Origin: Quercus robur
Lineage: Eukaryota > Streptophyta > Magnoliopsida > Fagales > Fagaceae
Reading direction: 5' to 3'
Assembly: GCF_932294415.1 (NCBI RefSeq)
Contig: NC_065535.1
Span: 83,101,862-83,165,861, forward strand
DNA: 64,000 bases
Shown here one piece after another: positions 21,997 to 60,158 of the stretch. The position numbers and the translations under genes were made by a program. The notes below the pieces were generated by a model, which worked only from the letters and a program-made list of their open reading frames with translations, had not been told where the DNA came from and searched no databases. How positions within the stretch are numbered: the first letter of the stretch is position 1; every line of letters begins with the position of its first letter.

Positions 21997-22055
21997 AAGT
22001 AATCCGCGTTCATTTTTTTTTTTTTTTTTTTTGAGAAGAAGTAATCCGCGTTCAT
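21997..22055 (-). mobile_element. Tail-only LINE insertion with 17-bp target duplication
   Basis: AAGTAATCCGCGTTCAT stands at 21997-22013 and again at 22039-22055. Between them are only 25 bp: 19 T and GAGAAG. On the minus strand this reads CTTCTC plus poly(A), like the last bases of the nearby LINE (ATTCTCAAAAC). It is an almost completely 5'-truncated retroposition event. Confidence 0.8.
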
Positions 22056-22175
22056 GGTGCAAGTTAGCTTACTTCTTAAATATAATGATATAAATTGTAT
22101 AAGAATATTTTAATTTTGCACATGTGTGCACATTTTGTACATACACTTGCTCATGCGTACGTGTGTGTGCTCTCT

Positions 22176-22221
<46 letters not shown>
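22176..22221. repeat. Compound (CA)n(TA)n microsatellite
   Basis: CA repeats from about 22176 run directly into TA repeats ending near 22221, just upstream of the LINE insertion site. Confidence 0.9.
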
Positions 22222-22477
22222 GATATAGATGTATTAAATCTAGACTCGTTTTTTATTAACAAGAGATTTCATTAATCAACATCCAAAAAGTTTTTTCTTT
22301 TTCTCGCCCTAGTTTCTCCCTGAGACACTAGAGCGTAGAACCTACCTTATCTTCCCCGGAATGATAAACCCTCCCCCCTGCTGAATCCTCCATAGCAGTA
22401 GGGTTCCTTGACCTCCGTTCTCCTTTACGTGTGGTCTACTCTCTTTATTCTCACTCTTTCATTATTGATTAACCTCC

Positions 22478-23884
22478 ATGGACGAAATCCTTTACGACTG
22501 GAAAAAATTATCACTGACAGATGAAGAAGATGTTAAGCTTAGTCTATCAAGATCCAAAAATATACGAAGAAAGGAGTATATTTTGGCTGCCAAGTTCCTC
22601 ACAAAAAGAGCTCTCAACGTGGAAGCCATAGGCCGCACGTTCAAACCTCTATGGAGAGCCAAAAAAGATTTCAAAGTTCGCGAAGCCGGAGATCACATTC
22701 TATTATTCGTCTTTGAACTCGAAGCAGATGCAGAACGGGTTCTTGCCAATGAACCCTGGACTTTCGATAAACACGCAGTCCTTCTTCAGAGGTTTGATGG
22801 TTCCACACCGCCGAGATACCTAAGATTCACAAAACTGAAATTTTGGGTGCAAATATACGGTTTGCCGATAAGTATGTTGGATCCAGAGACGGCAATTGAA
22901 TTAGGAGAATCTCTCGGTCAGGTAACACCATGTGCGAACCCAAATGAGTTGGTGGGGGGTGATTTTCTACGTGTTCATGTGGAAATCGATGTTTCAAAGC
23001 CTCTCTACCGGGGTCGAAGAGTCGCATTGGATGATAACACTGAACAATGGATTTCATTTAAGTATGAAAAGCTCCCAAACTTTTGTTACTGGTGTGGTCT
23101 GATTTCTCATGACGGGAAGGACTGTGACCTCTGGTTAGCAAGGAAAGATACAAGGAACACAGAACCTACGGAGTACGGACCGTGGTTGAGAGCGATGCCT
23201 TTCAACCCAGGGAAAACTTCTTTCACCGTTGTCTCTGGTATGGGCGACGGACTGGGAGGAGCATCAAAGCTAACAAAAACGACAACTGATACGGAGGTTC
23301 GACCAACCGGAACGAGCACGGTAAGATCCGATCCCGGCGAGAATAACGGCGAGAACCGGCTTCAGGTACCCGATATGGAAACAAGTAAAACAGGGGCGCA
23401 ATCCTTGCCAGAATCCCAGAAAAGCCGCATCCCAATAACTGAGGTAATAACGTCCAAATCTACATTATACACTTACCATACTGATTCATTTGACTTTGAT
23501 GCGCAGATACAGGAAATAGACGTTGCTCTTGGGACTGTTGACAGCTGTGAAAATCACGTGGCATCTACTTCAATTGATACTACTCAAGTATTAGCAAGCA
23601 ATGATGCCACGGTAACACCCTCCATGCCAGATCACACCCAAATAAGTCAGGAACAAGCACCTCACGTGGCAGCCAACAGAACTTTGCGATCTTGGAAAAG
23701 GTTAGCACGTGATAGCACTATGGAAACTGAATTTACTCAAGAACCCACGACCACAAAAAGAAACAGAGACGAGGAGTCGGAAGTTCTTCCCGAGTTACCT
23801 TTCAAAAAGATACAGGTTTCAAAGGAAGATTGTCAACAAAATAAAATGGTGGAGGCTGCTCAGCAGCCCCGCCAAGCACAATGA
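22478..23884 (+). CDS. LINE ORF1 protein, DUF4283 plus CCHC zinc knuckle
   Basis: A 468-residue RNA-binding protein presumed to coat LINE RNA. The N-terminal part (about residues 30-190) is the DUF4283 domain typical of plant L1 ORF1: KRALNVEAIGRTFKPLWRAK, then EPWTFDKHAVLLQRFDG and KFWVQIYGLP. It is followed by WISFKYEKLPNFCYWCG and the zinc knuckle C-x2-C-x4-H-x4-C (CYWCGLISHDGKDC, near residue 202). A polar, low-complexity tail ends KMVEAAQQPRQAQ. The frame is fully open. Its stop codon overlaps the ORF2 start in ATGA (23881-23884), which suggests ORF2 is made by termination and re-initiation. This is a transposon gene, not a host gene. Confidence 0.9.
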   Translation: MDEILYDWKKLSLTDEEDVKLSLSRSKNIRRKEYILAAKFLTKRALNVEAIGRTFKPLWRAKKDFKVREAGDHILLFVFELEADAERVLANEPWTFDKHAVLLQRFDGSTPPRYLRFTKLKFWVQIYGLPISMLDPETAIELGESLGQVTPCANPNELVGGDFLRVHVEIDVSKPLYRGRRVALDDNTEQWISFKYEKLPNFCYWCGLISHDGKDCDLWLARKDTRNTEPTEYGPWLRAMPFNPGKTSFTVVSGMGDGLGGASKLTKTTTDTEVRPTGTSTVRSDPGENNGENRLQVPDMETSKTGAQSLPESQKSRIPITEVITSKSTLYTYHTDSFDFDAQIQEIDVALGTVDSCENHVASTSIDTTQVLASNDATVTPSMPDHTQISQEQAPHVAANRTLRSWKRLARDSTMETEFTQEPTTTKRNRDEESEVLPELPFKKIQVSKEDCQQNKMVEAAQQPRQAQ

Positions 23885-26800
23885 GTCTCTTAGTATGGAA
23901 CTGTCGTGGGCTTGGGAACCTGCGTACAGGGAAGGAGCTTGAAGTTTTGATTCGGGCTAAAGATCCCTCCGTCGTGTTTTTAGCCGAAACATGGGCGGAC
24001 GAAGCTAGGCTAAAAGAAGTCCAAAGGAATATCAAGTTTGATAATTTGTTTTACGTGGAAAGAAATCATAGAGGTGGTGGGGGTTTGGCTCTATACTGGA
24101 AGAATTCCACGGATGTACACGTAGACTCATTCTCCAAGTATCATATAGATTCAATTATCAACAAAGGCAATGATGAAGCATGGAGATTCACAGGTTTTTA
24201 TGGAGAACCAGCAACTCACATGAGAATTGAAGCCTGGAATAAACTCCGACTACTCAACACGAAACACAACCTCCCTTGGCTATGCGCTGGAGACTTTAAT
24301 GAAATCACCAGACACTCAGAAAAATTGGGGGGTAATAACAGAAGCCAAGCTCAGATGCAACTTTTCAGGGATGTCATAGATGAGTGTGGATTCCTTGATC
24401 TCGGGTATGTAGGCGATCAATTCACTTGGAGAAAGCATTTTGCAGATGGTCACTCACTGTGGGAAAGATTGGATCGAGGTCTGGCCAACCATGATTGGTT
24501 CATGAAATTCTCAGGTTCAAAAGTACATCACCTGCACTCAGACTCTTCAGATCACTTACCACTATGGATCACCTTGGATGGTTTAGATATTCCTACATTC
24601 TCTAAACCATTTAGGTTCGAAGAAATGTGGCTCTCAGACCGTGGGTGCTCAGAGATTGTAGAAGCGGTGTGGCTTTCTAGGGAAGATGGAGATGTGCAGG
24701 ATCATGTCATTCGTAAAATAGACAAATGTGGTAAAGAATTAAGAGATTGGAACCGGAATTGCTTTGGCAATGTTAGAGTGGTGTTAAGTCGAAAGAGAAA
24801 GGAGTTAAAAGATGCTGAAAAAATAGCCATGAGATCCGGAAATAATCAACAGGTCAGAGAATTGAAGAAGGAAATTGCTGAGTTGGTTGATAAGGAAAAT
24901 AGACTCTGGTTCCAGAGATCCAAAGTCTTGTGGGCAAAATTTGGAGATAGAAACTCAAAGTTCTTTCACAGCCAAGCTTCACAAAGGAAGAGGAAAAATC
25001 TAATCCGGAAGCTTAAGGACTCCAATGGCCATGTGTTTGAGGAAAATGAGGGGATAGCGGAATGTCTAGTGCAATACTACCAGAATCTCCTCAGTTCAGA
25101 AAACCAGCAAATTTGTGACTCAGCTACAGACTCAATCCAGACAGTGATTACTGAGGAAATGAACTCCAAGCTCTCCTCTGATTTCACTCATATGGAGGTA
25201 AAGCAAGCCATTAACCAAATGGCCCCACTTAAGGCCCCTGGGCCGGACGGTATGCCTCCTCTCTTTTATCAACACTACTGGAATTTAATTGGTGATGATA
25301 TATCTAACACGGTGTTGCATTACCTTAATTCTGCCTCTCTACCTGAACACCTCAATCACACCTTTATCACACTCATTCCAAAAAAGAAGAATCCTGAATT
25401 TGCATCTGAATTTAGACCCATAAGCTTGTGCAATGTTTTGTATAAAATTTTCTCTAAAGTTCTAGCTAATAGACTTAAGAAAATTTTGCCTAATATTATC
25501 ACTGAGAATCAAAGTGCTTTCACTAAGAGTCGCCTTATTTCTGACAATATTCTTGTAGCTTTTGAGTCTTTACACAGTATGCAGAGACACTCAGGGAAGG
25601 AAGGTTACATGGCCATTAAGCTGGACATGAGCAAAGCATATGATAGAGTGGAGTGGGGGTACTTAGAATCTGTCATGGTAAAAATGGGGTTCACAGATCA
25701 TTGGATCAAACTCATGATGTTATGTGTCAAGACGGTGACCTATTCAATACTGGTGAATGGGGAACCTAAAGGCATGATCACACCAACAAGAGGCATCAGA
25801 CAGGGCGACCCCTTATCCCCCTTTCTATTCTTACTCTGTACTGAAGGTCTCAATGGGCTTCTTCTCCAAGCAGCTCACTAAGGACATATTAAGGGTTACT
25901 CTCTTTGTAGAAATAGTCCACGTCTAACCCACCTTTTGTTTGCAGATGATAGCTTGCTGTTTTGCAGGGCCACCAACGAGGAGTGCCAAAGAGTTTTGGA
26001 TATTCTGGATGTATATGGGAAATGCTCAGGTCAACGAATTAACCGTAGCAAGACGACAATCTTTTTTAGTAAATCTACGAAGGTTGAGTCTAGAGATCAA
26101 ATTAAATTGGCATTGGGAATTCCTGAAATCATTCAGTATGAGAAATACTTGGGGTTACCTTCGCTGGTGGGTAGAAACAAAAAAGCAAGCTTCAATTATA
26201 TAAAGGAAAGGGTATGGAAAAAACTGCAAGGGTGGAAGGAGAAACTTCTTTCGCAAGCTGGAAGGGAGATTCTTATAAAGGCCGTTGTTCAGGCTATTCC
26301 AACCTACACCATGAGCTGCTTCAAACTCCCAGTTGGACTTTGTTCTGAAATTGAAAGCTTAATAAGAAGGTTTTGGTGGGGGCAGAAAGGAGAACGGAGA
26401 AAAATCCATTGGGTGAGATGGGACACACTTTGTCTTCCAAAAAATGAAGGCGGAATGGGTTTCAAGGATCTAGCTAATTTCAACGATGCTCTCTTGGCCA
26501 AACAGGCTTGGAGATTACTTCATAATAAGGATTCTCTATTCTATAGAGTCTTTAAAATGAAGTTCTTTCCAAACTGTAGTATATGGGAAGCTCAAGACTC
26601 TAGCTCTGGCTCACATGCTTGGCATAGCATATTAAAAGGAAGAGATGTCCTACTGAAGGGCGCAAGATGGAGGGTTGGGAATGGAGAAAATATTAGTATT
26701 TGGAATGACGCTTGGTTACCATCACAGGAGCACCCAAGGGTCCTTTCAGACATTGTTCCAGGTTTTGAAGATGGAAGAGTTTCTGATCTCATTGATCCGA

Positions 26801-27978
26801 GTACAAGAACTTGGGATGCAAATTTAGTGCATGGCTTATTGTCATCTGAAGAAGCTGCACTGGTTCTCAGCATCCCACTGAGCCGTACCCCAGTGGAGGA
26901 CAAAATCATTTGGCCCTTCACCCCCTCAGGTAACTATACGGTAAACTCGGGTTCCAAGTTCCTAGCCAAACTAAACTCTATGTTGGTTCCTGCAGGTAAT
27001 CCTCAGCAGCAAAATGAGGTTTGGAAGCTGATTTGGGAGCTTAATGTTCCAAATAAAGTACGAAATTTCATGTGGCGGGTTTGCAAAGAAGCCATTCCAG
27101 CAAAGCACAATCTATTGAAGAGGAAGATCCTAAATGAAGATAGATGTGAACAATGTGGAGTGGAGTCCGAAACAGCTGCCCATGCACTTTGGAATTGTAC
27201 CAATCTGGACGAAATTTGGGATAACACTCCAGGTTTTGAAGACCGTGACCAACTGGGCATCTCAAACATCACGGAACTAGTCAAGGTGACGCATGAAAGA
27301 AGGATGAACACGGAGCTCATGGCTATGGTGATGTGGACGGTATGGCACAGACGGAACCAACTCCGAGTAAACTCCAACGTCCTTCCCAAAGCCCAGGTTT
27401 TTCAACAAGCAATGCAGGTCCTTGAAATGTTCCAAAGGAGCCAACAATCCCTCATCAATCATGCAGCGAACATGAGAACTCAGCAGCATATTCAGTGGCG
27501 TCCTCCTCCGGATAATTGTGTAAAATTGAATTTCGACGGTGCCATTTTTCAGGAGTTGGGCAAAGCTGGTTTGGGTGTGGTTGTCCATGACTCTCATGGA
27601 AACGCCATTGCCTCACTGTCTGAACAAGCCTCACTTCCATTTGCACCAGTCATTGTGGAAGCCATGGCTGCTGCTAGAGCGATTACTTTCGCACAAGAAC
27701 TTGGTTTTAATGAGTTTATGCTTGAAGGAGATTCAGAAGCAGTAATAAACACCCTTCGTAGCCCAGAAGCTTCATTGACAACTTATGGTCATCTTCTTGA
27801 ATCTGCAAAATCCACTCTAGTTACCAGCAAATGTATTGCTTTTTCCTATATTCGTAGAAGTGGTAATAGAGTAGCACACAACCTAGCTAAACATGCTAGA
27901 CATGTTAGAGGTTTGTCGGTGTGGGTGGAGGACATGCCACCACACCTCTATGATGTACTTTTTGCTGATCCCGGTTGA
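23881..27978 (+). pseudogene. LINE ORF2: endonuclease, reverse transcriptase, RNase H; one in-frame stop
   Basis: Polyprotein frame of 1,365 codons. The AP-type endonuclease (residues 1-235) has WNCRGLGN, FLAETW, GDFNEI (about 137) and SSDHLP (about 221). The reverse transcriptase has APGPDGMPPLFYQHYW, FRPISLCNVLYK (about 510), KLDMSKAYDRVEW (about 581), RQGDPLSPFLF (about 639) and the catalytic FADDSLLF (about 686). A zf-RVT segment (about 1050-1107) contains RCEQCG and HALWNC. A C-terminal RNase H (about 1215-1360) has KLNFDGA, EAMAAARAI, LEGDSEA and RVAHNLAKHA. The frame is continuous except for TAA at 25879-25881, between RQGDP and FADD, which would remove the catalytic aspartates. Otherwise every motif is intact. 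Either a recent inactivating mutation or a single base error could explain it. Confidence 0.9.
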
Positions 27979-27985
27979 TTTTTTC

Positions 27986-27991
27986 AATAAA
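27986..27991 (+). promoter_or_regulatory. AATAAA polyadenylation signal of the LINE
   Basis: AATAAA lies 8 bp after the ORF2 stop and about 20 bp before the tail begins (ATTCTCAAAACAAAA). Confidence 0.6.
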
Positions 27992-28043
27992 TTAGTAGTC
28001 TTCATTCTCAAAACAAAAAAAAAAAGAGATTTCATTAATCAAC

Positions 28044-28893: not shown

Positions 28894-28951
28894 CATCATG
28901 TGTAATTTCTTCTCCAAAAAAAAAAAAAAAAAAAACCATCTTGTGTAATTT
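28894..28951 (+). mobile_element. Tail-only retroposition with near-perfect 15-bp target duplication
   Basis: CATCATGTGTAATTT (28894-28908) and CATCTTGTGTAATTT (28937-28951) differ at one base and flank CTTCTCC plus about 19 A and a C. Confidence 0.65.
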
Positions 28952-29240: not shown

Positions 29241-29288
29241 AATTAATGATTATGTTTTTTTTTTTTATAGAAAGAATTAATGATTATG
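29241..29288 (-). mobile_element. Tail-only retroposition with 14-bp target duplication
   Basis: AATTAATGATTATG stands at 29241-29254 and 29275-29288. Only 20 bp lie between them, which on the minus strand read CTTTCTAT plus 12 A. Confidence 0.7.
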
Positions 29289-30202: not shown

Positions 30203-31246
30203 CCCCAACTACTTAAAAATCAAGTTTTGGACAGAACCAAGGTATTGCATGGTCCTCGGACTCATACCTATGGGGAAACCAACTACTTAAATATCAAGTT
30301 TTGGACAGAACCAAGGTATTGCATGGTCCTCGGATTCAAACCTATGGGGAAACCAACTACTTAAATATCAAGTTTTGGACAGAACCAAGGTATTGCATGG
30401 TCCTCGGACTCAAACCTATGGGGAAACCAACTACTTAGAAATCAGGTTTTTTATAGAACTAAGGTATTGCATAGTCCTCGGACTCAAACCTATGGGGAAA
30501 CCAACTACTTAAATATCAAGTTTTGGACAGAACCAAGGTATTGCATGGTCCTCGGACTCAAACCTAAGGGGAAACCAACTACTTAAATATCAAGTTTTGG
30601 ACAGAACCAAGGTATTACATGGTCCTCGGATTCAAACCTAAGGGGAAACCAACTACTTAAATATCAAGTTTTTGACAGAATCAAGGTATTGCATGGTCCT
30701 CGGACTCAAACCTATGGGGAAACCAACTACTTAAATATCAAGTTTTGGACAGAACCAAGGTATTGCATGGTCCTCGGACTCAAACCTATGGGGAAACCAA
30801 CTACTTAGAAATCAGGTTTTGGACAGAACCAAGGTATTGCATGGTCCTCAGACTCAAACCTATGGGGAAACCAACTACTTAGAAATCAGGTTTTGGACAG
30901 AATCAAGGTATTGCATGGTCCTTGGACTCAAACCTATAGGGAAGCCAACTACTTAAATATCAAGTTTTGGATAAAATCAAGGTATTGCATGGTCTTCGGA
31001 CTCAAACCTATGGGGAAACCAACTACTTAAATATCAAGTTTTGGATAGAACCAAGATATTGCATGGTCCTCGGACTCAAACCTATGGGGAAACCAACTAC
31101 TTAAATATCAAGTTTTAGACAGAACCAAGGTATTGCATGATCCTCGGACTCAAACTTATGGGGAAACCAACTACTTAAATATCAAGTTTTGGCCAGAACC
31201 AAGGTATTGCATGGTCCTCGGACTCAAACCTATGGAAAAGTCAGCT
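30203..31246 (+). repeat. 74-bp tandem repeat, 14 copies
   Basis: The unit is AACCAACTACTTAAATATCA, AGTTTTGGACAGAACCAAGG, TATTGCATGGTCCTCGGACT, CAAACCTATGGGGA (74 bp). The TATTGCATGG landmark recurs at 30243, 30317, 30391 and so on to 31205, keeping exact 74-bp register through 14 copies with only scattered substitutions. It lies inside the LTR element, between the primer-binding site and a second repeat block. Confidence 0.95.
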
Positions 31247-34569: not shown

Positions 34570-35115
34570 AGTCATCACGTGGTTCAAGAAAGTTTTTTTT
34601 ATCAAGTCAACACGTAGTTTAGGAGGAGATTTTTTTTTTTTTTTTTTGAAGATGTGACTGAACTCAGTAAATGATACCAAGCTGCCTACATACCTGAAAT
34701 GGGATCAAGTCAATACGTAGTTCAAAAGGGGATTTTTTTTGAAGATGTGACTAAACTCAATAAATGATACCAAGCTGCCTACGTACCCGAAAGGAGATCA
34801 AGTCAATACGTAGTTCAGAAGGAGAGTTTTTTTTTTTGAAGATGTGACTGAACTTAGTAAATGATACCAAGCTGCCTACGTACCCGAAAGGGGATCAAGT
34901 CAACACGTAGTTTAGAAGGAGATATTTTTTTTGAAGATGTGACTGAACTCAGTAAATGATACCAAGCTGCCTACATACCCGAAAGGGGATCAAGTCAACA
35001 TGTAGTTTAGAAGGGGATTTTTTTTGAAGATGTGACTGAACTCAGTAAATGATACCAAGCTGCCTACGTACCCAAAAGGGGGATCAAGTCAACACGTAGT
35101 TCAGGAGGAGTTTTT
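34570..35115. repeat. Tandem repeat of about 94 bp, five copies
   Basis: Each unit contains GAAGATGTGACTGAACTCAG, TAAATGATACCAAGCTGCCT, ACGTACCCGAAAGGGGATCA and AGTCAACACGTAGTT, followed by a variable T run. The GATACCAAGCTGCC landmark is at about 34673, 34766, 34863, 34958 and 35051. It lies 3' of the minus-strand gag-protease relic, within what is probably the same element. Confidence 0.85.
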
Positions 35116-35358
35116 TTTTTGGTGTTTTGTGTGTGTGTGTGTGTTTTTTGTTTTTGTTTGGTTTTCAACCTAGCGAGCTTTTAATACCCTAACTTTTGCC
35201 TAGGTTGCCTTTAAAAGGTTTTCAACCCAGCGGGCTTTTTTTTTTTTTTTTTTTTTTTTAATTTTATGAACACTTTCAAAAGTAATGGGAGAACATCATG
35301 TACTCTTTAAGTGTTGAAGTAGGCAGTTTTAGGCTCTTACCAAGGAGCATTTTAAAGT

Positions 35359-38300: not shown

Positions 38301-39052
38301 TGACTTCCACCCCCAACTTGGTCTTTGATAGCCTCCTTGATTAACTCCTTGAGCAGGTCAGGAGAGATAGACCCCTCTGTAGAGAAATTGAGATCCTTTG
38401 TTGAATTTTCAGGTCTGTCATTATGGGTTTGTTTCGGCCTAAAGCTTTCATCTTCACGATTCAATCCAGATGTATTCCCCATCTTATCCATTAGGAGAGT
38501 TATTTGTGCGTCTCTCATTGCTTCCCTTTCTTTCATAGACTTCATTAATTCTTCTAAAATCTGGGCTATAGTCGAGACTTGTTCCTCCAAAGATGTTATG
38601 TTAGTCATCATGACTAGCATGGCAAATGAGCTAACAGAACGAGGAGAATCCCTAAGCTTGGAAGCAGGAATATCATCTAAAAAAGAGAATTCAGAGCCAT
38701 CAAGTGCTTTGTTTTCTTCTTCAGCTATTGGAACTTCTTGGATTGATTCCAAAGTTTGAGACAAAGCTAGCTGAGATAACATTTCTTTGACAAGATCAGC
38801 TACGTCTTTGCTTGCCCCCTGTGTAGATGAAGTTGTTTGCGACTTCTGAACTTTAGAAGTGTTGAGAACAAGTGAGGGCTGGGGAATGGATGTTGTTTGA
38901 GCATAGACCTTTGCAAGAGCTTTTGTTCTTCTCCTTGTCATAGGTCCAGCATAGGAAGCGTCAGAACTTGACGAAGAGTTTGAATCCATTGTAGGATCGA
39001 CTTCACTTGTTCCAAAAAGAGGGTTGTTGATTTGAGTCTTCTTTGAAGCCAT
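35359..39052 (-). pseudogene. Ty3-type gag-protease relic, frame-broken, no reverse transcriptase
   Basis: Minus-strand remains of a plant Ty3/gypsy polyprotein. The gag starts at 39052 (MASKKTQINNPLFG) and includes the retrotrans_gag core (KQFVRSLKGNAFDWYTDLTP, then FLNRFYSTRRTVS). It continues in the same frame through in-frame stops at about 37967, 37655, 37540 and 36224. A knuckle-like CKYHRLIGHPIEQC lies near 37410. The aspartic protease has RILIDGGSAVNILPL and LIGRPWLH. A further segment, KASVSVISANYEEEEQFSNL, with repeated SVFDRLG-type motifs, lies in another frame (36021-35359), so there is a frameshift near 36000. After that, where reverse transcriptase should begin, the sequence changes to the tandem repeat at 34.6-35.1 kb. 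Non-coding in effect, and probably a gag-bearing non-autonomous element or a deletion derivative. Confidence 0.8.
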
Positions 39053-39105
39053 AGGGCTTCAAAAGATGTGACAATTTGATGAAGAAGAGATGAGAGGTAG
39101 AGATT

Positions 39106-39123: not shown

Positions 39124-39129
39124 AAAATT

Positions 39130-42127: not shown

Positions 42128-42433
42128 ATACAAAAAAAAAGATATTTTTCTAGGAATTTTAATACATTTTTATAATGTGGTGTCAATAATTGACAATTTG
42201 ACATACATGAAAGTGATGATTTTTGGTGTAACACAAGTTGCGAAGAATTTATGTATATAATATTACAAACAAGAACATAGGACAGGACAAAGGACTAACA
42301 TGAGCTCAACGCTTTTTTTCTCTCTAGGTTCTCCCAGGAGTCCTAGAGGTGAAACTTTTTCGTCTCTGTACGAACAGTTCTCTCATCAACACAGTAGAAA
42401 CATTTTGGTTTTACAGTTCATGGTAAGATAGTC

Positions 42434-44029
42434 ATGGAGGATATCTTGAATAGATGTGCGAGCTTACAGCTATCAGAGAAAGAGGGAGCAGAGGTTATTA
42501 TAGATGCTCCAATGACAGAAAGTAACAGAGTGTTGGCCAGAAAGTTCTTCACGAAACGGCGTGTGAACCTGGAGTCGGTGGCTCAGGTTCTAAGATCGAT
42601 CTGGAAAACAAACCAGAGCTTCGAGGTTAGCGACTTAGGAAATAATAAGGCTCTCTTTCTTTTCCAAAATGAGGATGATGCAGATAAAGTTCGACTTCAA
42701 GGCCCTTGGTCTTTTGATAAATACTTCCTTGCTCTGCACAAGCTGAAAACAGGGGAAGCAGTGAATAAGATCAAATTTGACAGGATGGCGATATGGATCC
42801 AAATACACGGCATCCCAACCATGTTCCAAACCAAGGAGGTGGGGTACAGCATAGGGTCCACCATTGGAGCGGTGGAAAGTGTGGACGCAAATGAAAAAGG
42901 CTTCTGCCTTGGAAGCTTCATGCGCATAAGGGTAATGATAGATATTTCAAATCCGTTGTGCAGAGGCCGGAAGGTTCGACTGGGAGAATCAAGTCAGTTC
43001 TGGGTTGACTTCAAGTACAAGCAAATGTCAATATTTTGCTACCTTTGTGGTTTGGTGACTCACGATGAAAATGATTGTTTGGTGGGGCTTCGCCGTACTG
43101 AACGGATGAATGTAGAGGACAAGCCGTATGGGCCATGGCTGAGAGCAACTCAGGAAAGACTTCAGAAACCTCAACTTGTCTTGGCACCATCTCGGGACAG
43201 CGATACAAAGGTACAAAAGAACCCAGACCTCCATAGTCAGGCTGGCATGGGATCGGACCGGCTTTCGCAAAGCTCAGTGAAGGGAACTGATCTCCAAACG
43301 ACGGCAGTAAAGGTCAATGGAAAAGGTGAAACTGACGTGGGGACAGTGGTCGCTTCTACCGAGGCAAAAATCCCGCAAATCCCTCACGAGCAGCGAGGCA
43401 GTCAGTTCGAAGAGCAACTAAAGGAGATAGACGCAGCGCTTTTTGGGGATACGGCTGACACAACAAATCTCCATAAAGCTGTGCTGAACACGGGTGTGAC
43501 TGAGATGATTCAAACAAATGATCAGAAAACCCATACGCAGATGAAGGTGGAAGGAGATGCCAGGAATGATGGGCCCCAGGAAATGTCAAAAAGCAACATG
43601 CCAACTATTGGGCCACAACCACATCATGGGCCAGCAAATAAAGCCCAGGTAAACCTTTCTACTCTTCCTCCTTTTAATATGGACCCAACCTCATTGACTA
43701 GCCCCACAAAGCCTAAACCGAAAAAGTCCAGCCCAATAAATCTAAAGAAAGACCGTGTAGGACTAGCCATGCAAAGAAAAGAAAATGTTTTACGTAGAGG
43801 GACAGTAAGGGTGAAAAGTGATGACTTGGGGACGGGCACCATGATGGAAGTAGAACAAAATGAAAAGAGTGGCAAGCGTAGAACTCGATCCCCCTTGAAA
43901 GATGTTTCGGGTTTGGTGGAGAATGTGAAGAGGAAAAAGATAGAAGGGGATGTCATGGCCCTTAGCAAAATCATGGCTCATGAGTTGGGATCGGTGGTGG
44001 CTGCGGGTCAGCCCCGCCGGGAACAATGA
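42434..44029 (+). CDS. LINE ORF1 protein, DUF4283 plus CCHC zinc knuckle
   Basis: A 531-residue open frame. The DUF4283 part reads RVNLESVAQVLRSIWKTN, GPWSFDKYFLALHKL and AIWIQIHGIPTMF. The zinc knuckle is CYLCGLVTHDENDC near residue 201, preceded by FWVDFKYKQMSIF. The tail is long, basic and proline-rich (TKPKPKKSSPINLKKDRVGL) and ends AAGQPRREQ. Its layout is the same as the ORF1 at 22478, but the sequence is clearly divergent. The stop overlaps the ORF2 start in ATGA (44026-44029). The frame is fully open although ORF2 is broken. Confidence 0.9.
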   Translation: MEDILNRCASLQLSEKEGAEVIIDAPMTESNRVLARKFFTKRRVNLESVAQVLRSIWKTNQSFEVSDLGNNKALFLFQNEDDADKVRLQGPWSFDKYFLALHKLKTGEAVNKIKFDRMAIWIQIHGIPTMFQTKEVGYSIGSTIGAVESVDANEKGFCLGSFMRIRVMIDISNPLCRGRKVRLGESSQFWVDFKYKQMSIFCYLCGLVTHDENDCLVGLRRTERMNVEDKPYGPWLRATQERLQKPQLVLAPSRDSDTKVQKNPDLHSQAGMGSDRLSQSSVKGTDLQTTAVKVNGKGETDVGTVVASTEAKIPQIPHEQRGSQFEEQLKEIDAALFGDTADTTNLHKAVLNTGVTEMIQTNDQKTHTQMKVEGDARNDGPQEMSKSNMPTIGPQPHHGPANKAQVNLSTLPPFNMDPTSLTSPTKPKPKKSSPINLKKDRVGLAMQRKENVLRRGTVRVKSDDLGTGTMMEVEQNEKSGKRRTRSPLKDVSGLVENVKRKKIEGDVMALSKIMAHELGSVVAAGQPRREQ

Positions 44030-47000
44030 GTGCATTAAGTTGGAACTGTAGGGGGCTTGGGAACCCCCTCACAGTTAAAGCACTCCACAAAATAGTGAAG
44101 GAGGAAGATCCCACATTAGTCTTCTTAATGGAGACCAAGTTTGATGTTACTGAGATGAAATGGGTACAAAGGAAGCTAGACAGAAAACAGGGGCTTGTGG
44201 TGCCTTGTATTCGACCGGGGGGGGGGGGGGTGGGCTTGCTCTCCTATGGCAGTGCTCTACAACTGTGGAGGTCCAAACTTACTCTCCCAACCATATAGAT
44301 GCTATCATTTCGGAGAATCAGGGTGCAAGGAAATGGAGGTTTACCGGTTTTTATGGGCACCCCGAAACTAGTAGACGCAATGAATCTTGGACGTTGCTCT
44401 CAAGGCTCAGTAGTCGCAGTGACTTACCTTGGGTGTGCATAGGGGATTATAATGAACTCATGTTTGCAAGTGAAAAGGAGGGTGGTAATACTAGACCTGA
44501 GGGTCAGATGAAACAATTTCGGGATGCCATAAATAAATGTAAACTCAGGGACTTGGGGTACAAAGGCTCGGCTTTCACTTGGCGGCGTAGATTGGGCAAC
44601 CGTGGGTGGATACAAGAAAGATTAGACCGTGCTCTTGTCTCCACCAATTGGGTTGGGATGTTCCCACGTTCCAAACTCCTACATATTGCTTCCTCTACTT
44701 CTGACCATAGCATTCTTCTCCTAAAGGCAGCCAACCCCCCTCGACAGAAATTTAGGCATTCAAAACTATTTCGCTTCGAAGCCATGTGGCTCATAAATGA
44801 GGCGTGTAATGAGGTGGTTCAGGAAGCGTGGGCAAGAGGTGTAAACAGGGGCTCTCAATGGCCAATTGCTAGCTGCCTGGAAGAGTGCCAATCCGCTCTA
44901 ATGTCATGGAACAAAAATAGTTTTGGTCATGTGGGTAAAAGAGTCACTGCTCTGCAAAAGAAGCTCCAAATTCTGGAGAATTTGAACATGGGGGGTACAG
45001 TGTTGAATGATATTCATGAGGTTAGATTAGAGTTAAACAAAGCTCTTGCCATGGAGGAAGATATGTGGCGTCAGAGGTCAAGGAATAGTTGGTTGAAAGC
45101 AGGGGACAAGAATACGTCTTTTTTCCACACTAAAGCATCCAACCGCATGCAACGTAACACTATAGCCAGGGTGATGGACTCCAATAACACATGGATTGAA
45201 GATGAGGAGCAGATTGGTCTTGAATTTGTACAGTACTTTGCTGGCCTCTTTACCTCCTCTGACCCTCGGATTGAGGGGGAGCTCATCAATGCAATTCAAC
45301 CGAAGGTATCGGATAGGATGAATGCCTCTCTGATCAGAGATTTCCAAGCAATGGAAGTTGAGAAAGCCTTAAAACAGATGCACCCCACGACGGCCCCGGG
45401 CCCGGACGGTATGCCCCCCTTATTTTACCAACATTTTTGGCCTACGGTCAGAGAGACTGTTATATGTAATACCTTAAACTTTCTTAACCACGGCATGGCC
45501 CCGCCCAAGCTCCATGAGACGCATATTGTGCTCATCCCAAAAACGAAAGATCCGGTAAGGGTCACAGACTACCGTCCAATAAGCTTGTGCAACGTAGCTT
45601 ATAAATTGGCTTCAAAAGTGGTGGCAAACAGAATGGAGGTAGTGCTGCAGGAAGTTGTAGGTGAAAACCAAAGTGCATTTGTGGCAGAGAGATTAATCAC
45701 AGATAATATTTTAGTGGCACATGAAGTGATGAATCATATTGGCAAACGTAGAAAAGCCAAATGTGGGGAAATGGCGTTGAAATTAGACATGAGTAAAGCA
45801 TACGACCGGGTTGAATGGGAGTGCTTAAAGCAGATAATGCTAAAACTTGGCTTCCATGGGCATTGGGTGCAAATTGTAATAAGGTGCGTGTCGTCGGTCT
45901 ACTATGCAGTGAAAATTAATGGGAAGCCTTGCGGAGAAATACGTCCGTCACGTGGGCTTCGTCAGGGCGACCCACTCTCTCCATACCTCTTCATCATCTG
46001 TGCAGAGGGTCTATCTACTCTAATCCATAGTTCAGTTAAACGGCAGAGACTAAAAGGTGTGGCTGCCTCGCGTGGGGGACCGAGCGTGTCTCACCTTTTC
46101 TTCGCTGACGATAGCCTCATTTTTGGGAGGGCCTCATTAGAGGAATGTGCTGAAATACAGAGGGTGCTTCATGTCTACGAGAAGTCATCAGGACAAATGT
46201 TAAATCGGTCGAAAACCTCTTTATTTTTCAGTCCTAACATAGCTGAGGGGTTAAAGGAGTCAATTAAGGCTATGTTCGGGGCAGTTGAGATTCGGCCTCA
46301 TGAATCCTATCTCGGGCTGCCATCCCTGGTGGGCCGATCAAAAAGCAATACTTTCACCAATTTAAAACAGAGGGTCGCAAACAAAGTGTCGGGATGGAAG
46401 GAAAAACTTTTGACTACTGCTGGTAAGGAAATTTTGATCAAGGCGGTTGCCCAAGCAGTACCGTCTTACTCCATGTCTTGTTTTCTCTTGCCGAAGAAAT
46501 TATGTGATGAACTCACTTCCCTGGTTTGGCAGTTCTGGTGGGGCCAGGTTAAAGATGAGAAAAAGTTAGCTTGGTTAAGCTGGGATAAGCTGTGCATGCC
46601 AAAGGAATTGGGCGGTATGGGGTTCAGGGACTTGAGGATGTTCAATTTGGCACTCTTGGCTAAGCAAGGTTGGAGGTTACAAACAAACTCTTCTTCCTTG
46701 TTTGCCCAAGTGTTTAAGGCGAAGTATTTTCCCCACTGCTCTTTCTTAGAGGCAGATTTAGGCCGCCGCCCCTCCTATGCCTGGCGGAGCATTATGGCGG
46801 CACAAAGGGTGGTGAAAAGGGGAACGAGGTGGCAAATAGGCTCGGAGGAGAGTGTACGGGTGTGGTGTGACAAATGGATTCCTAAGCCGTCTTCCTACAG
46901 TGTGGTCACTTGTGAAGAAGCTTGTCCTAATGTTGCTCTGGTTTGCGACCTCATAAACAGAGCATCCATGGAGTGGAAAGCTGAGCAAATCCGCGGCTGC

Positions 47001-48180
47001 TTCACAGAGGAGGAGGAGGATGCGGATGCTATTTTAAGCATCCCTCTAAGCTTGAATCGGCCCAAGGACAGATTGATATGGGCGGAGTCTCCAAGTGGAA
47101 AATTTACGGCTAAAAGTGCATATAGGCTAGCCTATGAGGCGGATTTTGGTGGCAGCAAAGCAGATTGTTCGAACCCATCGGTGAGGAAGAACATATGGAA
47201 GGGGCTGTGGAAAATGAATCTTCCCCAAAAAGTAAAGCATTTTGCTTGGAAGGCAGCTAGAAACATCCTGGCTTCTAAAGAGGCACTACAGCAGCGGCAC
47301 ATTGCAGTGGAAGGTGGCTGCGCTCTATGCAGGAACTTGACGTAAAATGTTATCCATATTCTCTGGTTTTGTGATCATGCCAAGGATGTGTGGAACTCGA
47401 GTAAGCTCTCGCTTCCTTTTGATATCGAACCTAATTGGTGTTTTTTGGATATTATGGAAAAGCTTCTTCAATATGAGGAAGTGCACCCCGGCCTGGCCGA
47501 ACGGTTTGTCTCAGTGTGCTGGGGTATCTGGAAAGAAAGAAATGTAATCCGGACGGGTGGAAAGAGTAAACCTGGTAGGGTCACTTTGAAAACCTCCCTT
47601 GGTCTAATGGACGAGTTCCAGATGGCCAATGAGGGTCCACAGAAGCCAGCTGCAGTAAGCCCTGAACCAATTCGCTGGGTGCCTCCACCACCTGGTCAGT
47701 ACAAGGTAAACTCTGATGGGGCTGTGTTCGCGATCCAGAGAAAGGGGGGGGCTGGGCGTGATGATCCGTGATAGCAATGGGAATGTGATCGCTGCTCTAA
47801 GCAGCCCCACAGTGGGTCCCCTTGGCGCCCTTGAGACGGAAGCCAAAGCAATGGAGGTTGGCATGCACTTCGCTCTTGACTTAAACATCCGTGATGTGGT
47901 GGTTGAGTGTGATGCGCTGGCTGTCTTCAATGCAGTCCAAGGTTTAGCGTCTCCTTGCTCTTCGATCCTCTTCATCGTGGACAGCATCCTCCAGCAATCT
48001 CGTTGGTTCAGGTCATGTTGTTTCACCCATACAAAAAGGCAGGGAAATGTCCCTGCCCACATGTTAGCACAGTATTCCAAGTCTTTAGTTAGTTACGTTG
48101 CTTGGGTAGAATGTTGCCCGAGCCATATTGAGCAGGCCTGTGCTCAGGATATTGATGTAACTACTTTTCTTATCGCTTGA
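44026..48180 (+). pseudogene. LINE ORF2 with two G-run frameshifts and one stop codon
   Basis: Endonuclease, reverse transcriptase and RNase H polyprotein spread over two frames. It opens with SALSWNCRGLGNPLTVKALH. The frame shifts at the 14-G run 44217-44230 and continues with FTGFYGHPE, GDYNEL and STSDHSILL. The reverse transcriptase has APGPDGMPPLFYQHFW, YRPISLCNVAYK, KLDMSKAYDRVEW, RQGDPLSPYLF and FFADDSLIF. The zf-RVT part has GCALCR. A TAA stop lies at 47343-47345, just inside zf-RVT, after which the same frame continues with VIHILWFCDHAKDVW. A second shift occurs at the 8-G run 47745-47752. The RNase H end is in the other frame, with GLGVMIRDSNGN, ETEAKAMEVG, VVECDALAV and GNVPAHMLAQ. 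The catalytic residues remain, but the frame cannot be translated through. Confidence 0.9.
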
Positions 48181-49194
48181 ATACAAGTTCAGTATTTCTT
48201 ATCAAAAAAAAAAAAAAAAAAAAGGACTAACATGTGTCCACTTTAAGGTACGCATCAATAACGTGTCCTCTTTGGTGCTCAAGTTACGCGTCAACCCTTA
48301 AGTAATCTTGTCAATCCTTTTCTTTGGTGAACCATACAGCCTGTCAAGGATGTTCATTTTCATTTCACATACAATGTAGTGATGCACTGCAAATCAATAA
48401 TTGCAACACAAAAATTTTTGCTCATAATCCATGGCATCTTTACCGTCCTTTATTTTGGTCCCAAGAATTTATGCTGATTGCAATTTTTGTATTTTCTCTT
48501 CTTCGGATTTTTTATTTTTATTTTTTGAGTAAATAGTAATACTTATTAGATCACATACGAAAATAGTAATATTAAAAGTTTTAAACCAGGTTTATAATAC
48601 ATTATTTAATCAGAATACAACTACAAAAGAGTCTAAGTAATATGATATTATAAGTAATATCAATATCCAGAACTTGGACATATAGTAATATTCGCATTTG
48701 TATTCATTAATATAAAGTTAAATATGGCAAAATTACGTAATCTCTCATGCCAATACCTCTCTCTCTCTCTCTAAATATACATATATATATATATATATAT
48801 AATGCAAAAAAAGAGACATTTTTCTAAGAATATTAATACATTTTTATAATGTAGTGTCAATAATTGACAATTTGACATACGTGAAAGTGATGCTTTTTGG
48901 TGTAACACAAGTTGTGAAGAATTTATGTATATAATATTATAAACAAGAATATATATATATATATATATATAGGATAAGACAAAGGTCTAACATGTGTCTA
49001 CTTCAAGAAACGCGTCAATGACGTGTCCTCTTTGGTGCTCAAGGTACACGTCAACCCTTAAGTAATCTTGTCAATCCTTTTCTTCGGTAAACCATACAGC
49101 CTGTCAAGGATGTTCATTTTCATTTTACATACAATGCAGTGATGCACTGCAAATCAATAATAGCAACACAAAAATTTTTGCTCATAATCCATGG

Positions 49195-54395: not shown

Positions 54396-54452
54396 AATAT
54401 GTTACATTAAGTTCTTATCAAAAAAAAAAAAAAAAAATATGTTACATTAAGT
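54396..54452 (+). mobile_element. Tail-only LINE insertion with perfect 17-bp target duplication
   Basis: AATATGTTACATTAAGT stands at 54396-54412 and 54436-54452. The 23 bp between are TCTTATC plus A. TTCTTATC followed by A is exactly how the LINE at 42303-48220 ends, so this is most simply an insertion of that family truncated to its last 7-8 bases plus tail. Confidence 0.85.
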
Positions 54453-54839
54453 GCTTCAATGTAACATGTGCTTTCCTTTTCTTTGCAGAGAAAACTTAGT
54501 TGTAGGGTTTTATTCACATTAATTAGAGAGATTATCTGGCTTGCAAATATCTGAACTGAGATATGGGTTGCTGTTGCCTCCGCCAATAACTATACTCCAT
54601 TTCTTGTGAGTTGTGACGGGGACGTTTGGAAATTAAGAGTGTAGCTAGCTATTAAAGCTTAAGTTTTACATTAACTTACACAATATTTATTCTTATCATT
54701 TTTTTTTGGGTAATGTGCCATAAGATGTAGGACTGTGAAACGTGAATAAAACACACCAGGAATTATTTAAAAAAAAAAAAAACCAAAAAATTTCACTTAG
54801 CGTATATGCCACATGATATTCTTGAAAGATGCGGACACC

Positions 54840-54894
54840 AAGTATTCAAATTTTACCCCATCAAAAAAAAAAAAAAAAAGTATTCAAATTTTAC
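54840..54894 (+). mobile_element. Tail-only retroposition with perfect 17-bp target duplication
   Basis: AAGTATTCAAATTTTAC stands at 54840-54856 and 54878-54894. The insert is CCCATC plus about 15 A. Confidence 0.82.
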
Positions 54895-55340
54895 GCACAA
54901 ATCGTACAAAGCATAGACATTCTTGGTGTGATGTAACAATTTTTCTCATAATTATGTGTGTTGGAAAATTATCTCAAAATCTATATTTTAACTTGATTAT
55001 ATATTTGGGTTTTCTTAATGTAAAAGGAAGATCTATTTATTATCAACAAAATAATTGGTCTTCCCTTATTAGAAAAGTAATATTACATTTCTTATTTACC
55101 AAGAAATATGAGTCACAGCCTTATGTGTGTTTGTTTGACATTGTTGTAAGAAGAAAAGCTTTAACTATATAGCTATAGCTTTAGTAGAGCTTTCGCAATA
55201 TAAAATTTCAATTGAAATGTTCTTTAGCATTTTAAGGGTTTGGCAAATTAAGGTGAGTAAGATTTTAAAGTTTTGAATTTATAAAGTATGTATAGTGAAT
55301 TTAAGGTGCCCGGGCCGTAAAAGTTCCAGATTTTAGCTTT

Positions 55341-55402
55341 AAGCTTATACTTAATTTCATTCTCAAAAAAAAAAAAAAAAAAAAAAGCTTATACTTAATT
55401 TC
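55341..55402 (+). mobile_element. Tail-only LINE insertion with perfect 18-bp target duplication
   Basis: AAGCTTATACTTAATTTC stands at 55341-55358 and 55385-55402. The 26-bp insert is ATTCTC plus about 20 A, the same terminal word (ATTCTCAAAA) that ends the LINE at 22281-28023. Confidence 0.87.
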
Positions 55403-58400
55403 GGCTTTAGTCTGGACCAATGTTCCTCTCATAAGAGTAGAATATAAGACTTTTATAGTGGCTTTGGTCCAAATGGTCCCTCATAGGAGAAGAAGATAAG
55501 AGACTTTAAAGGAATTTGAGTAAATTTTTTCAAGGAGTAGTTTCATAGGTTTTTTTTTTTAGGTTGAAAGATACTGGTGCATGTGATTTGATAGTGTGTC
55601 TATCACTCTATTGTTTGAATAAGAGGGTACCACTGGATATATTGAGCATAAGGTTTTCAATTTTGTGAATAAGTACTTAATGTTCATTTGCAAGTATTGG
55701 GACTTGGGTTTAGTTTGTATTTGTAAAAGATTTTGTTCGTAGCTAGCTGTATTTGTTTTTGCATGTACATATATTTATGAGAGTTTGTGAGTTTAGTTTT
55801 TGAGGTTTAGTTAAGTAGAGTTTGGTTACCATTATTTATGAATGTAGGCATAAAAAGTTTGTCAAATAGTTACACACCTACCGCTTTGCCGTCATGTATG
55901 GATTTTTATTTGATTGTTAGTGTGAATGTGATCCTCCTAGGCCCAAATTCTAGCAGACATGAAACATAGTTTCAAGGCCGTTGTTATTGACATTTGACCC
56001 TATACATATATAGATGAGCACTGAATTCTAATTTCAAAGCTAGTACAGACATTTGGTGGGAAATCTGGAACCATACTGATACTAACAGAAACTCCAATGA
56101 GATGACTAACCAACCACTTGGGCATCCTAGTCGTCTTATTTTTTGACATTGGGTTCGTTAGGTCTATGCCGCGGCACTGTATTTCTTGGTTTTTCAACGA
56201 CAACCAGACAACAAATTTACTATGAACTTTCAATTTTATATGCATATAAACCTAATGATTTATATGCATAAATGGCCTACTAATTAATGGGTTACTCATT
56301 TGTTGATCCATGTTGTATTATTGGCTTAAACCGTGCATATGTCTAGCTATGGGCACGTACCCTGGTTGCCCTCTTTGTCTTGTATGGCTTATTACCTGTC
56401 ATATGTGTGACCTTAGTCCCCAATATTTGTCGAGCATGCATCATGAATCAAATTGCCCAGCCAATTGTAGTCTTATGCTAGTGACTGTACGTAGAAAATC
56501 TATCAGAGACTTGAAAATTTCTTGCTCAATGTGAAAAAGTTGCTTAATAATTTAGGGTAAATTTGGAAATTCAAGATTAGGGTAAAATTTCTCAATGTGG
56601 GCCATAGTTTAAGTACAGGGTAAATTGGGAAATTCAAAAAAAATTTAAAGTCTTTTTTTAATCATCTATTTGAGAAGAGATCACTATAAATAATTTGTAT
56701 TTTAGGAGAGGTGAGTTGTCTAAACTAGAGGGGATGAGTTTAATAATTGAATACCACAAAGACGGTATAATTTTCCCAATATAAATCCCAATGCACATAA
56801 TTTGAGTAAGCTACTTTCACAACAAATTCTAGATGATAAGATCTTTTTGCTGGTTTTAATCTGAACCACGCACTATCGAAATTACTTCTTTTTTCCCTCT
56901 ATCAATAATAACTTATTATTTAAAATTTGTTAAGAAAATTTTGTGAACGCAACATTTCTTACAAAATTTCCACGCTTTATTGGATTGGGAGAGTCTTACC
57001 CAAATTTGTGTAGGAAGAGAAGACACCGTTAACATTACAAGTAGAAAGCTACACCACTTTATGTCCATATGGGATATGCTTGATGATCGATGAACACACG
57101 TAATGCATGCCACCACGTACGTTGTGAGTTGTTGGGAACGGAGTTATGGACTATAGCCAAGGCAGTTGAGGCTTGGACCTTAAAAAGGCTAAGTATAAAT
57201 TAGGAACAACTCACGTGCATTTGCGAGGTACTTGGACGGGGCCAGTTTAATTCAAGATTGGATTCAAGAAGTTGGGTCGAAAAAGTTGAAATAAGTTAGC
57301 CAGGGTTGTGATAAAACAGTTGGACAGCCAACAAGGAACACATGGGTGGGTTTAAGAAGAAAAATGTTGTTTCTAACAACTTATTTTATATCAAAATATT
57401 TTAAAATTAATGTGAAATTGATGTTTTTAATCAATGATATTGTAATTTGCTCGACAGGTAAACAAGGGTGTCACCTAATTTGAATTAATTAATTAATGGT
57501 CAAATTTAATGCATGCATGCATGGAAAGTTATGATATATATGTACACATCAGTCACAGTCCTAACATAGATACTCTACCAACTTAAATAAGTTTGTAAAA
57601 AAAAATATATTGTTAATCCTTGTACATTAATTAGTACATTATGATGTTTTCTACAAAAAAAAAAGTACAAGGTCTAAATCTTTCATTCTTATTATAACTA
57701 TTGAAAGTTTCAAAATAAAAAATTGTTGTCTTTGCTTAATTGATAGCTTATTATAATCAGATTCTAGCTTACTTTTTTTTTTTTTGAATGTCTAAACAAT
57801 TGTATGGCAAAATGAAAAATCAATTAACTTCAAACTTTTTAGGATCGCATCTTATGATATATACATATGTGTTGAAGCATCAGAGTTTGGTATATGCTGT
57901 GGCATGGGTTTTATATTAGGTTTTTTTTTTTTTTTTTTTTCCCCCTACTGTTTATTCACAGAAAAAGAAATAGAGGGGAAAAAGGAATTGAAAGCATGAC
58001 TTCCCTTCATTCTTGGATGATTTCCTTGCCAATCGATTTTGGGACATTTATTTCAAGGTGATCAACTATATCTTTACTTCCTAAGACAAGTCGCAAAGCA
58101 TTGATATGAGCCATACAATGGCTTCATTTTTAAATTTTTTTTTTTTTTTTTTTTCCAGCCGCCAATTGAAGAACAAAGAAAATGATAAAGATGTTCATAT
58201 CAAACCTTATAAAATTCATCATATTATACTTTAATTTATATATAGCTATAAATTAATCTTAACATTATATTTTCCAGCTGTGCTACGTACCTTTCTTTTT
58301 ATTATTTATTTTTTTTAAATTCATTTCGTAGAGATGCATGTAATATGTCTCCAACTTGCATATGAAATGGTACCGTTTGTGAATGTGAAAATGAGGGGAA

Positions 58401-59653
58401 GATGCTAAAATGGACGTGTGTTTCGCATCTGAGAATGACTCTTTTCGATTTTCATATATATATATATATACACACACACACCCGTCAGCAAATTATTTTT
58501 TCAATTAAATTCAAACATATTATTATATTGAACTTAATTGCTTTAATAAAATAATAATAATATTGTTTGTGCTTTATTAATTAGTACAGTGTACATACAT
58601 GTATTTGAATTTAATTATGGAATACAATATATAGCATCAAAAAAACTTCGTATACCAACATTTTGTCATTTACAATAAATTATAAGAATTTCAATCTATG
58701 GATTCCATTTTTAAATTTTTGGTATTATTATTGGCACGAACATTTGCAGTTGCCTACATTTATATGGGTTTGAGAGGAATGGATGAACACGAATAACATT
58801 ATGAGATAGTTCTTAAAAAAGGTATTCATGACTTTTCACAAGAAAAACAATCAAAAGTGACAGATACCATTAAATAAAAAAATAAATAAACTTAACTTTG
58901 TTGCATAACATACAAAATATGTATATGTGATTTTTAAATGGTGATTGAGCTCTGATGAATACCACAGATCAAATCTTAGCTAGAAACTAAGATTCAATGA
59001 AAAGAAAATATAGGTTATTTTAAGTTTGATTAAAAATTTAATTTTGAGTTCTATTTACTTAAAGAATAGTATTTATCTGATATTGGAAACTGTTTGAAAG
59101 TGTTCATACTTTTAAAAGCTGTAAATTATCTAACGAAAGGGCCGTAATTTTGGCTTACTTTCATGCAACTTTTTGATATCAATAGTAAAATTAATGCTAA
59201 AAATATTTTTTATAAAATATTTTACAATGAAGCAAATGAAGATTTCGGTATTCTAAATTTTATTTATTTATAAAAAACTAGTATTCTGTGGCACATATAT
59301 GCATATCATGGTCAGGTTCAATACCATGTTCAAGGATTTCAGTGAATACTGTTAAAAATAAATTTATTTCGATGTAATCCAAATAAAAATATATCTTGTA
59401 ATTCAAGTATAGTTTGTACCTAAGTTTTGAGCTCGTAGTTTAAAATTAAACAATATCTATTCTCTCCAATAATGTGTCACTTGATGTGACTGTCCAGTCC
59501 AATATTGCATATCCCGTATGCAAAATAGGTTTTCATCATACTGTTAACAAATACACGGGAATGGCTAAGCATATAATCATATATGATGACAAAATTGTTG
59601 GTAGGTGACCCTCTACATATATATATATATATATATATAGCATTATTTAAAAA
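55403..59653. other. Long AT-rich spacer, no gene seen
   Basis: The frames at 56000-56245 (minus) and 56310-56534 (plus) look slightly protein-like but carry no motif I recognise and no neighbouring exons. T or A runs lie near 57775, 57920 and 58138, and TA/CA runs at 58454-58482 and 59620-59640. Confidence 0.45.
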
Positions 59654-59716
59654 AGGTTAATTTCCTTCCTCCAAAAAAAAAAAGAAAACAAAAAAAAAAG
59701 AGGTTAATTTCGTTCC
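59654..59716 (+). mobile_element. Tail-like insertion with near-perfect 16-bp target duplication
   Basis: AGGTTAATTTCCTTCC (59654-59669) and AGGTTAATTTCGTTCC (59701-59716) differ at one base. The insert is TCC plus an interrupted A tract (with single G and C). Confidence 0.65.
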
Positions 59717-59881
59717 AACAATGCCGTGGCTGATGTAGAATTCTAAAGAATTAATATTATCCCAAATATTGGAAATTTTAAATTGAAACGAAACTCTTGC
59801 CTTTTGCTTCAGGGCAGAAAAACTTGAAAAAGAATAATCTTCACGTTTCTTAGCCATATTGTCGGGTCCAGGTATAAATAT

Positions 59882-59945
59882 AATGCAAGACTATATACTT
59901 CTTTTTTCTTTTCATTTTTTGCTGAGAAATGCAAGACTATATACT
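59882..59945 (-). mobile_element. Tail-only retroposition with perfect 18-bp target duplication
   Basis: AATGCAAGACTATATACT stands at 59882-59899 and 59928-59945. The 28-bp insert reads on the minus strand TCTCAGC followed by an A-rich tract interrupted by TG and G. Confidence 0.8.
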
Positions 59946-60062
59946 ATGTAGTATGTACTATAATATTATATAATATATATTTATTTATTTAACCCACTGA
60001 AAGAAACATGTAACTGAACATAGTTCCACATGCTCCAACGTTCGAAGGTGATCCAAGAAATA

Positions 60063-60112
60063 ATGATAGAAACCTTTTTTTTTTTTTTTTTTTTTGAAAA
60101 CATGATAGAAAC
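60063..60112 (-). mobile_element. Tail-only retroposition with 11-bp target duplication
   Basis: ATGATAGAAAC stands at 60063-60073 and 60102-60112 around a T run. On the minus strand the insert is GTTTTC plus poly(A) and G. Confidence 0.65.
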
Positions 60113-60123
60113 TAATTAAAAAC

Positions 60124-60158
60124 GTATCATTCATTAAAAAAAAAAATTGTATCATTCA
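60124..60158. mobile_element. Possible poly(A) insertion with 10-bp target duplication
   Basis: GTATCATTCA stands at 60124-60133 and 60149-60158 around TT, A11, TT. Orientation cannot be told. Confidence 0.45.

Follow-up and report, generated by a model that had tools for sequence, protein, structure and literature searches.

Copies of L1-type LINEs that are truncated at the 5' end carry a target duplication, a 3' poly(A) and the 3' end of the element, as do the insertions described here, whereas the truncated copies usually keep hundreds of bases of the element. Homopolymers made by LINEs and lying between target duplications are also known from L1 insertions with 5' poly(T), in which, in the part of the source considered here, the homopolymer does not stand alone but marks the 5' end of a truncated L1 measuring 99-4697 bp (PMC2837659). 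Among plants, partial copies of the Sadhu retroposons of Arabidopsis likewise have a 3' poly(A) and direct repeats, but the sections considered describe them as recognised by their family sequence, of which tail-only inserts have none (PMC2848041). Shorter products are on record in humans, where a table of disease insertions (PMC4859970, 124 entries) types at least four rows as 'pA' in the part considered; one of these (NF1) has a 6-bp duplication and three others involve a deletion and no duplication, while the shortest Alu insertion given there consists of 6 bases and A40, with a 1.4-kb deletion and no duplication. This kind of LINE activity is easily missed because a repeat finder would call the sites simple sequence and because the size floor of surveys can lie at 50 bp, as in the portion considered of a human-chimpanzee survey that counted only insertions of 50-10,000 bp (PMC2912911).

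In the current study we analysed a window of 64,000 nucleotides, the whole stretch of Quercus robur DNA from 83,101,862 to 83,165,861 of NC_065535.1. A sequence-only reading of this window had proposed that a population of insertions consisting of little more than a LINE tail explains many of its A/T homopolymers, and that truncation to under 10 template bases at this density is not known to have been catalogued. Regarding the latter, our literature search, which covered few subscription journals and in which 'poly(A)' was searchable only in other spellings, found no account of tail-only insertions being abundant in plants, and no such class appears in the parts considered of PMC3747384, PMC2848041 and PMC13174262; isolated human precedents are known.

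Results

Tail-only insertions in the window

All pure A-runs of at least nine bases on both strands (n=65) were scanned for flanking repeats, one copy lying where the A-run ends and its partner ending no more than 12 bases upstream of the run. A score of at least 10 around a short insert was reached by 8/65 A-runs, and the runner-up in the window scored 5. When the 5' and 3' flanks were taken from different A-runs, none of 4134 combinations passed, and with Markov-simulated flanks 0.05 cases passed on average, and never more than 1, over 200 simulation runs, against 9/76 tails with the real flanks. Chance and base composition were rejected on these two controls, which do not reproduce the observed repeats; the sequence-only reading had named an equal number of repeats in simulated sequence as refuting its proposal.

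The eight main sites put forward in that reading were all found in place. On the plus strand lie CTTCTCC-A20 at 28894..28951 (15-bp repeats with one difference, 28894-28908 and 28937-28951), TCTTATC-A18 at 54396..54452 (17-bp perfect repeats, with the end-word of LINE2), CCCATC-A17 at 54840..54894 (17-bp perfect repeats) and ATTCTC-A22 at 55341..55402 (18-bp perfect repeats, with the end-word of LINE1). The minus strand holds CTTCTC-A20 at 21997..22055 (17-bp perfect repeats, 21997-22013 and 22039-22055), CTTTCTAT-A12 at 29241..29288 (14-bp perfect repeats), GTTTTC-A21 at 60063..60112 (11-bp perfect repeats) and an older insertion with an A-rich degraded tail at 59882..59945. Seven of the eight combine a pure A/T run of at least nine with a flanking repeat above the threshold; the degraded one, whose 18-bp repeats are perfect, was caught when short-spaced repeats were compiled blind to A-runs, an inventory that recovers the listed sites amid many tandem-type repeats of the window. 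The sites that had been ranked as weaker fared unequally. The one at 59654..59716 (plus strand, interrupted tail, 16-bp repeats with one difference) makes a fair case and is probably an older tail-only insertion, 60124..60158 (plus strand, insert TT-A11-TT, 10-bp repeats) is marginal and represents the eighth passing site of the A-run scan, and 9957..10038 (plus strand, 13-bp repeats with one difference, 22 bases before A35) is doubtful. Seven of the ten tail-only sites of the window (9957 excluded from the ten) lie within less than 6 kb, at 54396-60158.

Resident LINEs and other possible donors

Two LINEs reside on the plus strand of the window. LINE1 (22261..28043) has its body at 22281-28009, its tail at 28010-28025 and a perfect 20-bp target duplication at 22261-22280 and 28024-28043, and LINE2 (42289..48234) has its body at 42303-48203, its tail at 48204-48223 and a perfect 14-bp duplication at 42289-42302 and 48221-48234. 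Both show the organization of plant L1-type LINEs, with DUF4283 and a CCHC knuckle in ORF1 and endonuclease, reverse transcriptase and zf-RVT in ORF2, and from this domain content we take them to belong to the L1-type clade. The Pfam matches comprise DUF4283, zf-CCHC_4, endonuclease, RVT_1 and zf-RVT in both elements and RVT_3 in LINE1, the only one of the two with an RNase H-like domain match. LINE1 ends in CATTCTC followed by AAAACA11 and LINE2 in TTTCTTATC-A20, which agrees with the end-words previously read from the sequence.

A SINE-like family ending in GTTGTAATTATTTCTC-A was found in two copies (94.6% over 93 bases), one on the minus strand of the sampled stretch L022 at 3879-4030 and the other in L123, with target duplications present and inner motifs that we take to be tRNA-type boxes. 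The template of a tail-only insert need not be a LINE, because this family likewise ends in TTTCTC-A, and it is possible that it served as a second donor of tails. The tRNA scan returned one tRNA-Ser and no SINE. With a template part of only 2-20 bases, family assignment is a matter of words that fit LINE ends, TTTCTC being shared with the SINE-like family.

The window also contains a tandem array with a 74-bp unit in about 14 copies (30205-31235), a 93-bp tandem array (34640-35121) near a minus-strand open frame with a Retrotrans_gag match (37967-39052), and minus-strand open frames with an SPX match (16726-17661) and a below-cutoff AP2 match (60439-61041).

End-words before A-tails across the genome

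In the 786-Mb assembly to which the window belongs, occurrences of each word directly ahead of A12 were counted and compared with those of the reversed pattern. The counts were 176 against 37 for TTCTTATC, 1975 against 175 for CTTATC, 2606 against 194 for CTTCTC, 709 against 48 for CATTCTC and 13110 against 1006 for TTCTC, so that LINE end-words occur 5 to 15 times more often than the reversed pattern. For the first four words, 20 matches each were taken in listing order with no random draw (the CTTATC sample skips L034 and L035, which had been fetched earlier, and the CATTCTC sample has two matches in stretch L110), and 13, 8, 7 and 11 of them, respectively, were tail-only at a score of at least 10. 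LINE end-words therefore mark tail-only insertions in 39/80 matches vs 6/79 unselected A-runs of at least 12 (Fisher p 5e-9), which supports the earlier suggestion of target-primed reverse transcription by LINEs. Among the other 41 word matches, LINE1-like ORF2 protein sequence immediately precedes the tail in four, a farther repeat occurs in four and weak repeats (scores 7-9, uncounted) occur in seven, while 25 of the 80 show neither duplication nor LINE homology. A TA/CA microsatellite with a passing score in L110 was dropped, counting as a miss in the 39/80 and being excluded from the 64 insertions characterized below. Further TTCTC matches passed in 5/20 cases.

GTTTTC was included as a comparison word since two tail-only inserts carry it, and for the same reason it is not a clean negative. 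Its count before A12 was 569 against 312 for the reversed pattern (1.8-fold), and 5/20 matches passed, or 3/15 once copies of one repeat were merged; the difference from the LINE words gave p 0.08 on raw counts. Six of the 20 GTTTTC matches (L143, L144, L147, L151, L153 and L160) are one repeat with a GTTTTC-A insert, and three of these six copies show a 14-bp flanking repeat, as if the insert had been copied together with its host repeat. In the set chosen without reference to words, TTCTC or TTATC occurred in 5/20 sites with a duplication vs 10/231 sites without one (p 0.003). As these words account for only five of the 20 duplicated sites, other donors contribute, and several inserts bear words other than LINE end-words, such as TCAT, CAGC and GATGT.

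Properties of templates, tails and duplications

The tail-only set comprised 64 insertions, 44 chosen by words of 5-8 letters and 20 word-free. The template part measured 2-20 bases with a median of 7 (at most 9 bases in 55/64, 6 in 16 and 7 in 15), and in the word-free subset the median was 6, with 17/20 at no more than 9 bases and 7/20 at 6 or 7. Since choosing by words favours 6-7 bases, the peak at these lengths (31/64) speaks for shortness and not for an exact stop, and true template lengths may be slightly greater, bases common to template and repeat having been assigned to the duplication. The whole insert, tail and template together, had a median of 23 bases. Template length and A-tail length gave a Spearman rho of -0.015 (n=64) and of -0.25 (p 0.29) in the word-free 20, a comparison weakened by the slippage through which A-tails change length.

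The flanking repeats have the character of target duplications, being 10-21 bp long and perfect in 44/64 cases, with 22 differences in 975 bases. Moreover, the poly(A) adjoins the 3' duplication, as in a target-primed product. At the presumed nick, where the endonuclease consensus would be T-rich before A-rich, A came first in 37/44 duplications, although the method partly forces this A, and T or C preceded it in 31/44.

Empty sites

The sequence-only reading had proposed looking for alleles lacking the insert, and in paralogues a single target copy was found for four sites. The insert at L059, GGCTTATC-A19 with the duplication AAGTTGCTATTGTA, lies inside a high-copy repeat, and its joined flanks matched in one piece in 40/40 scored copies at 93-96% (of 3253 candidates), two aligned paralogues having a single repeat copy without the insert. 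At L023, 3/3 fetched paralogues were empty, and both the insert and the second copy were lacking in 4/4 fetched, diverged paralogues (74-82%) of the window site 29241-29288 and in the one paralogue (76%) of L006:7503. Because these paralogues have neither the insert nor a second copy of the repeat, the sites are insertions and not products of slippage or tandem duplication. At L050 and L056 the paralogues share the insert, which therefore predates the duplication.

Abundance and insert lengths

Twenty 10-kb stretches taken at even steps along the chromosome of the window (200 kb) contained 175 tails, 11 of which had a short-insert duplication, with 0/1629 in the mispaired null. Two of the 11 are doubtful, namely L022:4768 (15 bases) and L021:774 (which adjoins a second repeat), and the density is about 55 tail-only insertions per Mb, or 45 without these two. 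Extrapolated from this one chromosome, the genome would hold some 43,000 or 35,000. Tail-only density was higher in the window than in the 200-kb sample. The statement that such insertions explain many homopolymers can now be quantified, since 7/36 A-runs of at least 12 in the window and 6/79 in 20 other stretches are tail-only; these insertions account for about 8 to 19% of long A-runs.

Longer inserts were rechecked in the 200 kb among rows of more than 15 bases, with tandem repeats masked and tails already counted as tail-only set aside. Eight rows were left (L007:7236, L016:2796, L016:2925, L017:2929, L021:2829, L022:3879, L022:3324 and L023:1808), two at 15-60 bases, four at 60-200, one at 223 and one at 751. 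L022:3879, the SINE-like copy, is the sole one identified, and up to eight of these rows may be longer insertions. When the window was searched to a distance of 8 kb upstream from each of the 76 A-rich tails, 10 short rows (including the doubtful 9957) and the two LINEs emerged, with none credible between them; inspection assigned the remaining longer rows to low-complexity sequence (17608, 58135) or to the 93-bp tandem repeat (34.6-35.1 kb), and they were rejected. In searches with the LINE 3' ends, 10 of the 11 longest close matches to LINE2 (40/52 candidates scored) start at query bases 1-4 and one at 143, and for LINE1 (40/211 scored) seven start at bases 24-131, corresponding to lengths of 153-260 bases. 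Matches shorter than some 45 bases escape these searches, so that mid-length copies are under-sampled in them. Truncated LINEs and SINEs of the ordinary kind coexist with the tail-only inserts.

Discussion

Target duplications, poly(A) tails, enriched LINE end-words, empty paralogous sites and very short templates were all observed here, and together they point to tail-only inserts as products of L1-type LINE machinery whose target-primed reverse transcription terminated almost immediately, an origin that we consider highly probable. The proposal is thereby retained with qualifications, as the template need not be a LINE, other words occur and ordinary longer insertions exist. The enzyme chemistry can be reconstructed as follows: the endonuclease would nick the target DNA, and the DNA end so released would serve as primer on a poly(A) tail, either that of a LINE RNA or that of another transcript mobilised alongside the LINE. 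The enzyme would then copy the tail and a few further bases before halting, and after cleavage of the second strand the short cDNA would be sealed in, leaving a duplication of 10-21 bp around the word and the poly(A).

Regarding the halt itself, the chances appear roughly even that it represents abortion on leaving the poly(A) and not run-off on a shortened RNA. Human ORF2p, in the portion of the structural study considered here, makes contacts, in part adenine-specific, with 15 bases of single-stranded poly(A); about 20 A are bound at initiation, and good activity is seen from about this length onwards (PMC10830416). By analogy, the plant enzyme may likewise start while bound to poly(A) and often fail past the tail. 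The lack of relation between template and A-tail length would be expected from such abortion, because the point of stopping would then depend on where the poly(A) ends.

The main rival to abortion, which we regard as possible although rather unlikely, is that a LINE, SINE or messenger RNA was degraded from its 5' end up to the tail-bound protein and that the enzyme copied the remnant to its end. Similarly short template parts across different words agree with this explanation, and an enzyme bound to the RNA could protect a remnant about as long as the insert, given the 20 or so A held by human ORF2p at initiation in that same study (PMC10830416). However, a fixed footprint predicts longer tails with shorter templates, and neither the 64 insertions nor the word-free 20 displayed such a relation, although slippage could mask it.

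An improbable alternative is that the tail-only inserts are the shortest members of a single continuous length spectrum formed by ordinary 5'-truncated LINE and SINE copies. The LINE1-related copies of 153-260 bases (7/40 scored candidates) fit such a continuum, as do the SINE-like insert of 110 bases and the few longer candidate rows of the 200-kb sample. Nevertheless, that sample has 11 inserts of up to 15 bases against at most two at 15-60 and four at 60-200 bases outside tandem repeats, and the window has about 10 tail-only sites and two elements near full length, with nothing credible in between. Lastly, an origin of the sites in AT-rich DNA by chance, by slippage during replication or as filler from break repair can practically be set aside, since, although the window is AT-rich (35% GC) and has other short-spaced repeats without A-runs, the mispaired flanks yielded no such sites and the simulated flanks almost none, the word enrichment is confined to the 5' side of the A-run and the empty paralogues contradict it where they occur.

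Taking immediate termination of target-primed reverse transcription as the origin of these inserts, the step from start to elongation becomes countable, because each insert records the point at which the enzyme was released. We tentatively extend this to a wider reading, which is conceivable but on balance somewhat doubtful, that LINE reverse transcription has a commitment step in which poly(A) holds the initiation state and a substantial fraction of events is abandoned within about ten bases of leaving it. Aborted events might then be the commonest product of retrotransposition by number (about 35,000-43,000 if 9-11 per 200 kb are representative) and would continually give rise to new poly(A) microsatellites flanked by target duplications. 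Tail-only inserts offer a concrete birth route for A/T microsatellites, which the duplication and the end-word serve to orient and date.

Compared with known systems, the proposed commitment step resembles the abortion by RNA polymerase before promoter escape. The tail-only inserts themselves share with the human 'pA' and shortest Alu insertions a poly(A) accompanied by 0 or 6 element bases, and the two differ in that the human cases, in the part of the record considered (PMC4859970), are few and mostly deletion-linked, while the oak inserts are abundant and flanked by duplications of 10-21 bp. With these extreme human cases on record, the kind of insertion is known, though not, as far as the literature search reached, its abundance.
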